A stretch of DNA of 64,000 nt from Gammaproteobacteria bacterium 45_16_T64. GTDB taxonomy: Bacteria; Pseudomonadota; Gammaproteobacteria; Pseudomonadales; Ketobacteraceae. The notes under the pieces were generated by a model, which made no database searches, was not told where the DNA came from, and saw nothing but the letters and a program-made list of their open reading frames with translations. The DNA is taken from positions 146,740 through 210,739 of the forward strand of contig MABD01000030.1 in the NCBI GenBank assembly GCA_002162955.1, read 5' to 3'. Below are positions 53,206 through 58,252 of this stretch, one piece after another; position 1 is the first letter of the stretch; every line of letters starts with the position of its first letter. Both the position numbers and the translations under genes were made by a program.

Positions 53206-53787
53206 ATGTTATTAATGATCGATAATTATGATTCGTTTACCTATAACGTAGTGCAGTATCTGGGGGAGCTCGGTGCAGATGTGCAAGTTTATCGTAATGA
53301 TGAAATCACCATAGAGCAAATTGAAGCGCTGAACCCAGATAAATTGGTTATATCGCCTGGGCCTTGTACGCCGAAAGAAGCGGGTATTTCGATGTCTGTA
53401 ATCAAGCATTTTGCGGGTCAGATACCGATCCTTGGTGTTTGTTTGGGGCATCAAAGTATTGCTGAGGTGTTTGGCGGAGAAGTCGTTAGGGCTGCGCAAG
53501 TAATGCATGGTAAGACATCTCCTGTGTACCATCGTGGGGAAGGGGTGTTTCGTGGTTTGAAAAAGCCTTTTGATGCGACGCGATACCATTCACTTGTGGT
53601 GAAAAGAGAGGCGCTACCTGATTGTTTGGAAGTAACTGCGTGGACTCAGCATCAGGACGGTAGTGTTGAAAATATTATGGGCTTACGTCACAGGGAGCTG
53701 CCGATAGAAGGCGTTCAATTCCACCCTGAATCAATATTGACTGAGCATGGTCACGATCTATTTAGGAACTTTTTAGAAGGACAATAG
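53206..53787 (+). CDS. trpG: Anthranilate synthase component II (glutamine amidotransferase)
   Basis: Glutaminase subunit of anthranilate synthase, in some bacteria shared with PabB. The 193 residues contain [28 protein letters not shown], the nucleophile motif [11 protein letters not shown] and the C-terminal [13 protein letters not shown] with the catalytic His and Glu. In close relatives trpD follows directly. Here a convergent gene begins 10 bases later, and trpD lies 3.4 kb away. Confidence 0.97.
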
Positions 53788-53797
53788 GTGTATTGTG

Positions 53798-55423
53798 CTA
53801 TCGAAGATAAAACAATACTTGTTTCGAATCAGCATTTGCCTGTGCTTGTACCGCCGTATCTATGCGTTGTTGCATGATGCTTCTGGATATTTCGGCTAGT
53901 TTAGACGCAGTGGCGGTGCTGGATATGCCAGTGTTATTCTCCCTTGGTTGTTGGTAGATGCTGCCAAAGGCTTGCAGTGTTGATTGAAATTCTGAACGTA
54001 ACGCCGAGAGTTTTTCTTTGTAGTCGTCCACCTGTTGGATGGCCTGGCTAATATTAAGGGCTGCACTTTTCGCATTAGTCTGAGTTTCTAGATTGGTATC
54101 TCGAACTGTATTGGTTGTTGAAACGTTCTCTTCTGTGCCATCAAGAGAGAACTCATCGAGCCCCGCGCGAGATTTGCTACTGCCGAAGAACGAGAGTTCA
54201 TCATTTGCCGATAGGGTGACTCGACCGCTGACTCGTAAATCGTTGAAGTTTTGAGTAAAGCGCGACTCACCTCCGCCAAAGAGTAAATTCGTAGTTTCTG
54301 TTGTTGACGTATTGATAACGATATCTCTACCGTCGCTGGCTTCTAAGTTGAGTTCCCCGGTGTTTATATCAGTTGATGCAACCACCCCCGTCATCGGGGT
54401 GAGTGCGTTGATCGCATATACCAACGTACCAGCGGCGTCATTTTCCAGAAACGTCACTTTATCGACATTGATACCATTAATCGATAGATCCCCTCGATCG
54501 AGAGAGCCGAGGCTCACGTTCTTATCGATTGAGGTATCAACTGTACCGGAAAAATCACTACTGCTAATATCACCACTGTTAAATAGGGTGTTGGCCGTTG
54601 CGTAAATATTTGTCAGGGTCGACTCTCCAAATTCGCGGATAGTATTAACCCGTGACGCTAGGTCTTTTGCTAAGCCCGACCCAAAATCGTCATGGGTTGG
54701 ATCGGTGATTGATGAGGTATTTGCTACGTTTTGTAATAAACCACCGAATTTCTGGTCGGTGATATTGATCGCCTCATTAATATTTTGATTTTTCACGTAT
54801 ATAGATATATCAGATAGTATATTTGTTCGAGCATTGCCTTCCTGAACACCTTGATTGCCGCTAACACTTTCTTGTAATTGGGTACGGTCACCGGTTGACT
54901 GCTTATCCCCCGGTTGTAACCCAAGAGCCTCGGTAGAGGCGTTGAATCCGCGAATGCTCTTCTGTGTAGGTTCTGACAAACTGACTTGAAAGGAAACCTC
55001 GCTAATGCTCCCGTCTAGTAACTGCTGGTTATCAAGGATGGCGTTTTCGGCGATGTTATCGAGTAAGTCGACGAGTTGTTCCGCATCATAGTTCAGCTCT
55101 TTTCTGCCTGGGCCGGTGGTCTTATCCGCGGCAGCCCGGATTGCAACAGCTTTGAGCTGCTCAAGGGCGTTACCCGTTTGGTTGAGGAATTGCTCGGTTG
55201 CATTGGCAAAAACAGTGGCAGGATGGGAGGGAAAAATACTTGTGCTTTTACTCGTATCGCCAAATGTAGGGAGTGCGTAATCAAAATGGACGCGCAACGC
55301 GTCGTCATCTTCCTCGGGAAGTTGGCGGGAGGTTAAGCTATTCGATGATGAGGTGTTACTGTCCTTAGATGAGACCCCACTGTATGCACGAACGCTTGAG
55401 CTGGTTGGCGTGATGAGTGGCAT
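53798..55423 (-). CDS. Divergent orphan flagellin-like protein
   Basis: 541-residue protein from the ATG at 55423. The C-terminal 92 residues (450-541) resemble the flagellin D1/D0 end: NAKSAALNISQAIQQVDDYKEKL, SEFQSTLQ, and RIDTAVQAQANADSKQVLFYLR. The region 84-139 resembles the flagellin N-terminal D1 helices (GNALEQLKAVAIRAAAD, LNYDAEQLVDLLDNI, NQQLLDGS). The middle contains a flagellin-IN-like INGINVDKVTF segment. The first 80 residues are Ser/Thr-rich and do not resemble the usual D0 helix. A frame extension to a GTG at 55447 would start inside the promoter. The gene splits the trp genes. Its function is unknown; it may be a filament-associated or secreted flagellin relative. Confidence 0.7.
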   Translation of the reverse strand: MPLITPTSSSVRAYSGVSSKDSNTSSSNSLTSRQLPEEDDDALRVHFDYALPTFGDTSKSTSIFPSHPATVFANATEQFLNQTGNALEQLKAVAIRAAADKTTGPGRKELNYDAEQLVDLLDNIAENAILDNQQLLDGSISEVSFQVSLSEPTQKSIRGFNASTEALGLQPGDKQSTGDRTQLQESVSGNQGVQEGNARTNILSDISIYVKNQNINEAINITDQKFGGLLQNVANTSSITDPTHDDFGSGLAKDLASRVNTIREFGESTLTNIYATANTLFNSGDISSSDFSGTVDTSIDKNVSLGSLDRGDLSINGINVDKVTFLENDAAGTLVYAINALTPMTGVVASTDINTGELNLEASDGRDIVINTSTTETTNLLFGGGESRFTQNFNDLRVSGRVTLSANDELSFFGSSKSRAGLDEFSLDGTEENVSTTNTVRDTNLETQTNAKSAALNISQAIQQVDDYKEKLSALRSEFQSTLQAFGSIYQQPRENNTGISSTATASKLAEISRSIMQQRIDTAVQAQANADSKQVLFYLR

Positions 55424-55437
55424 AAGTAAAGACCGTG

Positions 55438-55464
55438 TTATCGGCACATCTACCTATTAGTTTA
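55438..55464 (-). promoter_or_regulatory. Consensus sigma-28 (FliA) promoter of the flagellin-like gene
   Basis: On the minus strand TAAA, 15 bases, GCCGATAA, an exact match to the class III flagellar promoter consensus. The expected transcript start lies about 8 bases before the ATG at 55423, so the leader is very short. Confidence 0.85.
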
Positions 55465-55647: not shown

Positions 55648-57087
55648 ATGAATAGATTTGATATAAGTTGGGCAAAGAGTTGTGCGAAAGTGTTGGGTTT
55701 TTGTATTGTTTTCACATTGTCGGGGTGTTGGGAGAAACCTGATAATACACGCTATATAACGGATGCACAGGGAAGGTCACTAATACTTCATGGTATTAAT
55801 TCCAGCAGTAGCGCAAAGAACCCCGCAACGGGGCATATGCCTTGGGTCAGTGAAGCCGATGTTGAGCAAGAAGTTGTTGAATGGGGGTTTAACTTTGTTC
55901 GTTTCTTAATATTTTGGGATGGCGTAGAGCCAGAGAGAGGGCTATTCGATGAAGGCTATTTGGATGCCGTCGAAGAGCGGGTAAATTGGTATACGTCTCG
56001 CGGAGCCTACGTCATGTTGGATATGCATCAGGATATTTATGGCCACGCTGTGGGGGGGAATGGCGCCCCAGAGTGGGCGACTGAATTGAGCCTGATGGAT
56101 GATTTTAGCCTCACTTTTCCTGAGGGGCTGCCTTGGTGGATAGCCTATGTGGACCCGACCGTTATCGCAGCGTTTCTTAATTTTTGGGGGTACAACTCCC
56201 ATCAATACCTTCAAGATCACTATATTCAGTCTTGGCAAAAAGTTGCGGAACGGTTTCGAGATCATCCAGGAGTGATCGGTTATGACTTGATGAACGAGCC
56301 CTATCCTGGTGATTTGGTATCTGCTGTATCGTTAACGTTTGAGCCAACTCGACTAAAGGCATTTTATGACCGGCTGATACCTGCGCTGAGATCCGTTGAC
56401 AATGATAAATGGATTTTTTATGAGCCACAGTCTTTGGGAATCAACTTTGGCCTTCCTTCAATGTTGCCGCCGTTGAGTGATGGAAGGATTGGGGAAAAGC
56501 GATTAGTCTATGCGCCGCATGCTTATCCATTCACTCTTCATGAGGGTGTTGCCTATAACTTAACCGATAAGTTGAATATGGTGGAATGGAATAAAAACCG
56601 GGTGAATGAGCTTAATCAGCATCAAGTGCCTTTGTTAGTGGGGGAATTTGGTGGTAGCGATGAGACTCCCGGGTTTAGGGAGTACCTGGATGATACTTTA
56701 ACGATGTTCGATACGATGGGAGCTAGTTGGGCCTATTGGTCAAACGACCCTGGGGGATGGGGGCTGTTGGACGCGCAGGGGAACGAAACACCAAAAGTAG
56801 CGCATTTGGTTCGGCCGTATCCAAGAGCTATCGCCGGGGAGCCTGATTATTTCACCTTCGATGTGGTCACCAAAGTCTTCGAGTTACAGTTTTTTGAAAA
56901 GGTAGGTGTGGAGGGCGGGACAGACATTCATTTGCCTCAACGTCATTACCCAAATGGGTGGGAGATTGAGCATTCAGATGAGGATGGTCAGTGGCGATAT
57001 GAATGGGATGAGAGTCGGCAGATTGTTACCATATTCTCAGATCCCATGACTTCTGTTCATAAAATTCGCATTTATTCTCTTAAATAG
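55648..57087 (+). CDS. GH5 endoglycoceramidase-like lipoprotein
   Basis: Predicted outer-membrane or periplasmic lipoprotein of 479 residues with lipobox LSGC (Cys27). The GH5 domain (about 35-400) shows the endoglycoceramidase pattern: LILHGINSSS, NFVRFLIFWDGVEPERG, VMLDMHQDIYG. The acid/base Glu217 lies in GYDLMNEPYPGD, and the nucleophile Glu333 in PLLVGEFGGSDE. The remaining 80 residues form a beta-rich C-terminal domain as in EGCase I. These enzymes release the glycan from glycosphingolipids. The real substrate here is not proven and a related glucosylceramidase or glycolipidase is possible. It sits between the flagellin-like gene and trpD. Confidence 0.85.
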   Translation: MNRFDISWAKSCAKVLGFCIVFTLSGCWEKPDNTRYITDAQGRSLILHGINSSSSAKNPATGHMPWVSEADVEQEVVEWGFNFVRFLIFWDGVEPERGLFDEGYLDAVEERVNWYTSRGAYVMLDMHQDIYGHAVGGNGAPEWATELSLMDDFSLTFPEGLPWWIAYVDPTVIAAFLNFWGYNSHQYLQDHYIQSWQKVAERFRDHPGVIGYDLMNEPYPGDLVSAVSLTFEPTRLKAFYDRLIPALRSVDNDKWIFYEPQSLGINFGLPSMLPPLSDGRIGEKRLVYAPHAYPFTLHEGVAYNLTDKLNMVEWNKNRVNELNQHQVPLLVGEFGGSDETPGFREYLDDTLTMFDTMGASWAYWSNDPGGWGLLDAQGNETPKVAHLVRPYPRAIAGEPDYFTFDVVTKVFELQFFEKVGVEGGTDIHLPQRHYPNGWEIEHSDEDGQWRYEWDESRQIVTIFSDPMTSVHKIRIYSLK

Positions 57088-57132: not shown

Positions 57133-57220
57133 GTTCCTCTCCTCGGCAATGCTACAATCGCGCCTATTCGATGCCGATATCCATCTAGATTGTCGGCGTA
57201 ACCCACTACCGGAGAGATTG

Positions 57221-58252
57221 ATGAATATTCAGAGCGCTTTGCAAAAAGTCATAGACCGTGAGGATCTTTCAGAGGCCGAAATGGGCGAGGTTATGCAGCA
57301 GATCATGACTGGGCAAGCAACGGCCTCGCAAATTGGCGGTTTTCTGGTGGCTCTGCGTATGAAAGGTGAAACAGTTGATGAAATTACTGGTGCCGCCAGC
57401 GTGATGAGAGAGCTTGCCACTCCGGTAAATATTGACGCTGAGCATTTGGTCGATACCTGTGGAACAGGCGGAGATGGTGCAAATACATTCAATATATCAA
57501 CCACTTGTGCGTTTGTTGTTGCTGCTGTAGGTGGCAAGGTGGCAAAACACGGTAACCGCTCTGTATCGAGTAACAGTGGTAGCGCGGATGTGCTGGAAGC
57601 GGCTGGGGTGAAGTTGGATATTACCCCAGAGCAAGTTGCTCGATGCGTAGAAGCAATTGGCGTGGGTTTTATGTTTGCACCGATGCACCATAGTGCAATG
57701 AAACATGCGATTGGGCCGCGTAAAGAAATGGCGGTGCGGACGATTTTTAATATTCTTGGCCCTTTGACGAATCCAGCTGGCGCAGATAGCCAAGTGATGG
57801 GGGTATACAGTAAGCAATGGGTGCGCCCTGTCGCTGAAGTGTTACAGCGATTAGGTAGCCGTCATGTCATGGTGGTGCATGCAGCTGACGGGTTGGATGA
57901 AATTAGCATTGCAGCCGAGACTTTTGTTGCTGAAGTCAAAGACGGCGAGATTAAGGAATATACAATTACTCCAGAGCAGTTTAACCTGGCCCGTGCACCT
58001 TTATCAGCGATTGCCGCTGACGGGGTGGAGGATAGCCTTCGGGTTATTCGTTCTGTGTTGGCAAATGAGGAAGGGCCGGCGGCTGATATCGTCGCATTAA
58101 ATGCTGGGGCCGCGATTTACGTTGCAGGTTTGGCAGATACCTTGGCTCATGGTGTTGAGATGGCTCAAGATGCGATTGGCAGCGGCATAGCGAAAGACAA
58201 GTTGGCGGAGCTAGTGAATATGTCGGCAGTATACCGACAAGAAGAGGCATAG
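57221..58252 (+). CDS. trpD: Anthranilate phosphoribosyltransferase
   Basis: Transfers phosphoribose from PRPP to anthranilate. From the ATG at 57221 (GGAGAG 6 bases upstream) the protein has 343 residues. The frame is open 24 codons further upstream, but that segment has no family similarity. Motifs present are [17 protein letters not shown] (PRPP loop), [21 protein letters not shown] and [16 protein letters not shown]. The trpD-trpC pair is intact, 2 bases apart. Confidence 0.96.

Follow-up and report, generated by a model that had tools for sequence, protein, structure and literature searches.

Within the window, which is the whole 64,000-nucleotide stretch of DNA that was analysed, a gene for a flagellin-like protein of 541 residues lies between trpG and trpD and is antisense to both, so that the earlier note on this DNA was right to place it inside the trp locus. 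The features of this part of the window are as follows.

53206..53787, + strand: trpG, convergent neighbour of the flagellin-like gene
53798..55423, − strand: flagellin-like gene, 541 aa, start ATG at 55423
53801..54088, − strand: residues 446-541, rebuilt CD1/CD0 coiled coil, with its end (QAQAN..L..LR) kept
54089..54944, − strand: residues ~161-445, outer domain, with the Flagellin_IN motif at 312-364; the best-kept region
55007..55219, − strand: residues 69-139, flagellin ND1 core, matching Flagellin_N profile positions 67-137
55223..55423, − strand: residues 1-67, what is left of ND0 and the first ND1 helix after divergence; rich in Ser, Thr, Asn and Pro and under weaker constraint
55438..55464, − strand: sigma-28 (FliA)-type promoter, TAAA-N15-GCCGATAA, exact match
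55648-57087, + strand: GH5 glycosidase gene, lipoprotein-like (Cellulase, 4.3e-40)
57149..58252, + strand: trpD, the other flank of the insertion

The stop codon of the flagellin-like gene is 10 nt from that of trpG, and on its other side the GH5 glycosidase gene separates it from trpD. A longer minus-strand reading frame (53798-55447, 549 aa) opens with GTG. The ATG at 55423 is almost certainly the true start, since all five orthologues align at it and the GTG falls within the −10 box of the promoter. The same glycosidase gene was also seen in one relative (G002) and as a short remnant in another (G003, L040:7106-7315); in G001 and G004 the interval that separates the flagellin-like gene from trpD lacks it.

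No flagellin-like gene was present in the trp loci read from other genera of the family. There trpG and trpD were adjacent or split by unrelated genes in nine of ten genomes; the tenth, G014, showed no trpG in the 7 kb that were read. Different unrelated inserts occupy the trpG-trpD junction in different genera (L076, L078, L079 and L080), as though the trp operon tolerated insertions at this point.

A sigma-28-type promoter directly upstream

The exact sigma-28 promoter that had been read just upstream of the gene was confirmed. Its full sequence, TAAACTAATAGGTAGATGTGCCGATAA, occupies 55464-55438, where all eight −10 bases match and the −35 element matches five of the eight bases of TAAAGTTT in the published consensus (PMC7286023). 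By searching both strands of the 6.49 Mb genome for exact sites with a spacing of 14-16 we found seven, compared to two for a reversed control pattern. The late flagellar gene cluster is on a different contig, C30, and one of the other six exact sites precedes a flagellin of the main flagellar cluster on that contig. In four species the observed promoter score was not equalled once when the 150-nt upstream region was shuffled 500 times at the mononucleotide level. The promoter is kept in four of the five orthologues, being exact in the source genome and G003 and carrying TAAG for TAAA in G001 and G002; upstream of the G004 orthologue it was not recognisable. The −10 box ends 14 nt upstream of the ATG, and a sigma-28 transcript would therefore have a leader of a few bases, without a clear ribosome-binding site. 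Another exact site was observed ~80 bases before a 474-aa frame (L084:1501-3027) with a very weak match to Maf-type glycosyltransferases (0.046, below cut-off).

An altered flagellin core and a retained outer domain

Profile searches against flagellin and FlgL, which the earlier note had proposed as a check, gave a divided answer. Pfam Flagellin_N matched above its cut-off (6.6e-07; 29.9 bits against 26.6), albeit over profile positions 67-137 of 139 only, Flagellin_IN was just below its cut-off at residues 312-364 (3.1e-04), and residues 1-67 had no Pfam match. Flagellin_C was below cut-off in four orthologues (0.71 here, 10.7 bits against 23; 0.68 in a second and unlisted at E up to 1 in a third), although C-terminal homology to flagellin is still visible in the alignment. 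The best NCBIfam flagellin model gave 4.4e-24, far below the curated cut-offs, and solved flagellin structures matched by sequence at up to 4.6e-15. With Flagellin_N above cut-off and a position inside the flagellins in the tree described below, the proposal of a flagellin relative is borne out. The accompanying suggestion that it might be cap-like is not: neither Pfam nor NCBIfam gave a FlgL or FliD family match at E up to 10, the Flagellin_IN motif is of the type typical of flagellins, and separate genes for a FlgL-type protein of 415 aa (beside flgK) and a FliD-like protein are present in the genome. The absence of a family match and the tree position led us to reject identity with either junction or cap protein; the likeness to the hook-filament junction protein FlgL is one of flagellin-like terminal helices in general. 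The genome further encodes three ordinary flagellins and one FliS.

Flagellins usually conserve their core and vary their surface. The nearest known protein is the full-length flagellin encoded on contig C38 of the same genome, a member of the FliC family. It is 39% identical over residues 77-547 in the numbering of the 549-aa frame, and the two are alike in domain order and in the Flagellin_IN motif. Identity to the C38 flagellin is 11-20% in the N-terminal region, 22-28% in ND1, 46-49% in the outer domain and 27-34% in the C-terminal region, whereas flagellins outside the C38 type show ~58-64%, 58-64%, 51-59% and 57-64% to it in the same regions. We also scored the columns that are invariant among 11 flagellins of the family. 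The trp-locus protein keeps 19% of these over residues 1-70, 42% over 71-160, 85% over 161-445 and 31% over 446-541, the outer-domain figure resting on columns that stay invariant within a region more variable to begin with. The outer domain is the best-kept part and the core is altered, which is the inverse of the pattern in FliC flagellins, where the core is best kept; ordinary flagellins show no such inversion.

At the N-terminus, the view that a Ser/Thr-rich segment has replaced the D0 helix is correct in that no ND0 helix is recognisable, but the segment has diverged rather than been swapped. It aligns nearly in register with flagellin (MPQIPPTN.. against MPQIINTN..; clade pattern MPxIxPT), with a gap of 8-10 residues and loss of LSSGLRINSAKDDAAG, and replacement by an unrelated sequence is thereby ruled out. 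The motif RINSAKDDAAG, near-universal in flagellins, is gone from the alignment. For the region 84-139 and the C-terminal 92 residues, both earlier described as flagellin-like, the description stands for the ND1 core and less well for the heavily altered CD0/D1, in which QQAG has become QRID and LSLL has become LFYL. New residues have become invariant within the clade, for example FGSIYQ.PRE. Judged from sequence, these losses at both ends support the expectation that normal polymerisation is unlikely.

Structure prediction, also proposed as a check, agrees in part. In AlphaFold2 models made at equal depth from the same five sequences as the alignment, residues 1-67 received no helix, compared to two (11-34 and 42-58) for a normal Ketobacter flagellin; both models are of low confidence (mean pLDDT 45 and 44), so the contrast is a controlled hint only. 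A fold search with the predicted model returned flagellins, which counts only as agreement with the sequence result because of the low-confidence model and a large rmsd.

Descent and constraint of the trp-locus genes

The gene is a real, vertically kept flagellin paralogue. An intact orthologue, with ~60% identity, lies at the same location in all five genus genomes searched (the G003 gene, split over two overlapping contigs, was joined for comparison); the relatives are the MAGs NORP69 and 42_54_T18 and two uncultured gammaproteobacteria, and Ketobacter belongs to the same family. In a tree of 26 rows, built on residues after 70, the five trp-locus genes form one clade (100/100), and the genus's normal flagellin on contig C38 is its sister (96/92). 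The stem of this clade measures 1.0 changes per column, against a median end branch of 0.23. Across the ND1, outer and C-terminal regions, dN/dS among the three closest species is 0.035-0.107 (0.035-0.051 in the C-terminal region), compared to 0.28-0.36 in the N-terminus; comparisons that involve the two remoter species mostly run into saturation at synonymous sites. The long stem and the low dN/dS afterwards suggest a burst of change followed by constraint. Between G001 and G002, synonymous divergence is 0.39 in the first 75 codons (55423-55199) compared to 0.68-1.3 in the rest, perhaps because the beginning of the mRNA is constrained.

When 295 genomes of the order were searched with a profile of the N-terminus, convincing matches were confined to the genus. 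Three weak matches beyond it (E 2e-4 to 8e-4) are probably due to chance: two fall in 71-aa frames with internal stops, and the third in a 635-aa protein that bears little resemblance to a flagellin. Searching for related loci with the single protein as query found none, and with the orthologue alignment returned four genes of the genus and one Ketobacter flagellin. In G008 an 803-aa flagellin-like frame (L050:7080-9491) aligns in two places with the outer region of the query, perhaps through duplication of its outer domain.

Two systems described elsewhere invite comparison. Campylobacter jejuni FlaC is a secreted, non-structural flagellin (PMC5466977). Both proteins are flagellin paralogues that probably do not form the filament, and FliS would be the expected handler. 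However, FlaC keeps D0-D1 and is largely without D2-D3, whereas the trp-locus protein does the opposite, with an outer region of ~285 residues kept and the core altered, and no kinship other than flagellin homology was found. The Sphingomonas protein of PDB entries 2zbi, 3k8v and 3k8w, described there as a cell-surface flagellin, gave a sequence match (2zbi, 5.2e-09) and a weak fold match; its solved constructs were deliberately trimmed, and the likeness is one of sequence and weak fold. A literature search, with most subscription journals outside its reach and precedent therefore possible, found no flagellin lacking the N-terminal D0 or showing inverted conservation.

Possible roles of the protein

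Retention in five related species suggests a flagellum-linked job other than filament building. We give an even chance to the reading that this flagellin paralogue has been neofunctionalised: produced along with the late flagellar genes and exported, it would display a filament-like outer domain and not act as a normal subunit. An old duplicate of the genus's second flagellin, the C38 type, would have inserted at the trpG-trpD junction ahead of the diversification of the genus and acquired a new role. Sigma-28 would drive its expression alongside the late flagellar genes, FliS would bind the C-terminal D0 remnant and the protein would exit via the flagellar export channel. With the ND0/ND1 and CD0/CD1 interfaces rebuilt, it would not join the filament as a normal subunit, and may instead be a soluble, surface- or filament-associated protein whose flagellin-like outer domain could serve surface contact or act as a decoy for filament binders. 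FliS of C. jejuni binds CD0 and still binds N-terminally truncated FlaA without ND0 (PMC5466977); in the present case such binding is uncertain because the C-terminal D0 is altered. Export is the weakest step and may have been lost, since the signal of flagellin, placed in the first 47 residues or in residues 26-47 in some reports (PMC6337784), falls in the diverged stretch. The one orthologue in five lacking a recognisable promoter and the low confidence of the structure models also count against this reading.

Loss of the export signal would lead to a different role, that of an unexported cytoplasmic regulator or chaperone sink, which binds FliS or a flagellin glycosyltransferase via its C-terminus or outer domain and so tunes flagellin supply. 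The strong constraint on the C-terminal D0 remnant in three species, while the export-signal stretch is unrecognisable, favours such a sink, and expression with the late genes would fit. We nevertheless consider it unlikely, as a factor confined to the cytoplasm would hardly be expected to keep 85% of invariant cells in an exported-type outer domain. Type III secretion signals frequently lack order and show little sequence conservation, so lost similarity need not mean lost export. The rebuilt yet constrained core, with its new clade-invariant residues, could also be that of a specialised minor subunit in the filament, junction or tip, packing against partner flagellins or FlgL/FliD and not against itself. 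Minor flagellins with special positions are known (PMC8306008), and the three ordinary flagellins of the genome are available as co-assembly partners. The same work describes the terminal regions as critical for polymerisation, and with no predicted ND0 helix and RINSAKDDAAG gone we regard this role, too, as rather improbable.

A degraded polymerisation core and a promoter lost in one species might also be expected of a decaying, functionless flagellin copy that has merely not been lost yet. This is very improbable indeed given five intact frames, low dN/dS outside the N-terminus and conservation of both the new residues and the position; a pseudogene is excluded by purifying selection and the five intact copies.

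Returning to the exported, outer-domain-displaying paralogue, a bolder extension, which we think quite improbable, is that there is a class of flagellin paralogues under inverted selection, with the outer domain preserved and the core dismantled and rebuilt, which act as flagellum-co-expressed soluble or filament-bound mimics of the filament surface, for example as decoys for phages or other binders. As a vertically kept paralogue in which the usual pattern of conservation is reversed and which has a sigma-28-type promoter, the gene offers a natural test of what becomes of a flagellin freed from polymerising, and also of the N-terminal length that the flagellar export apparatus truly requires.
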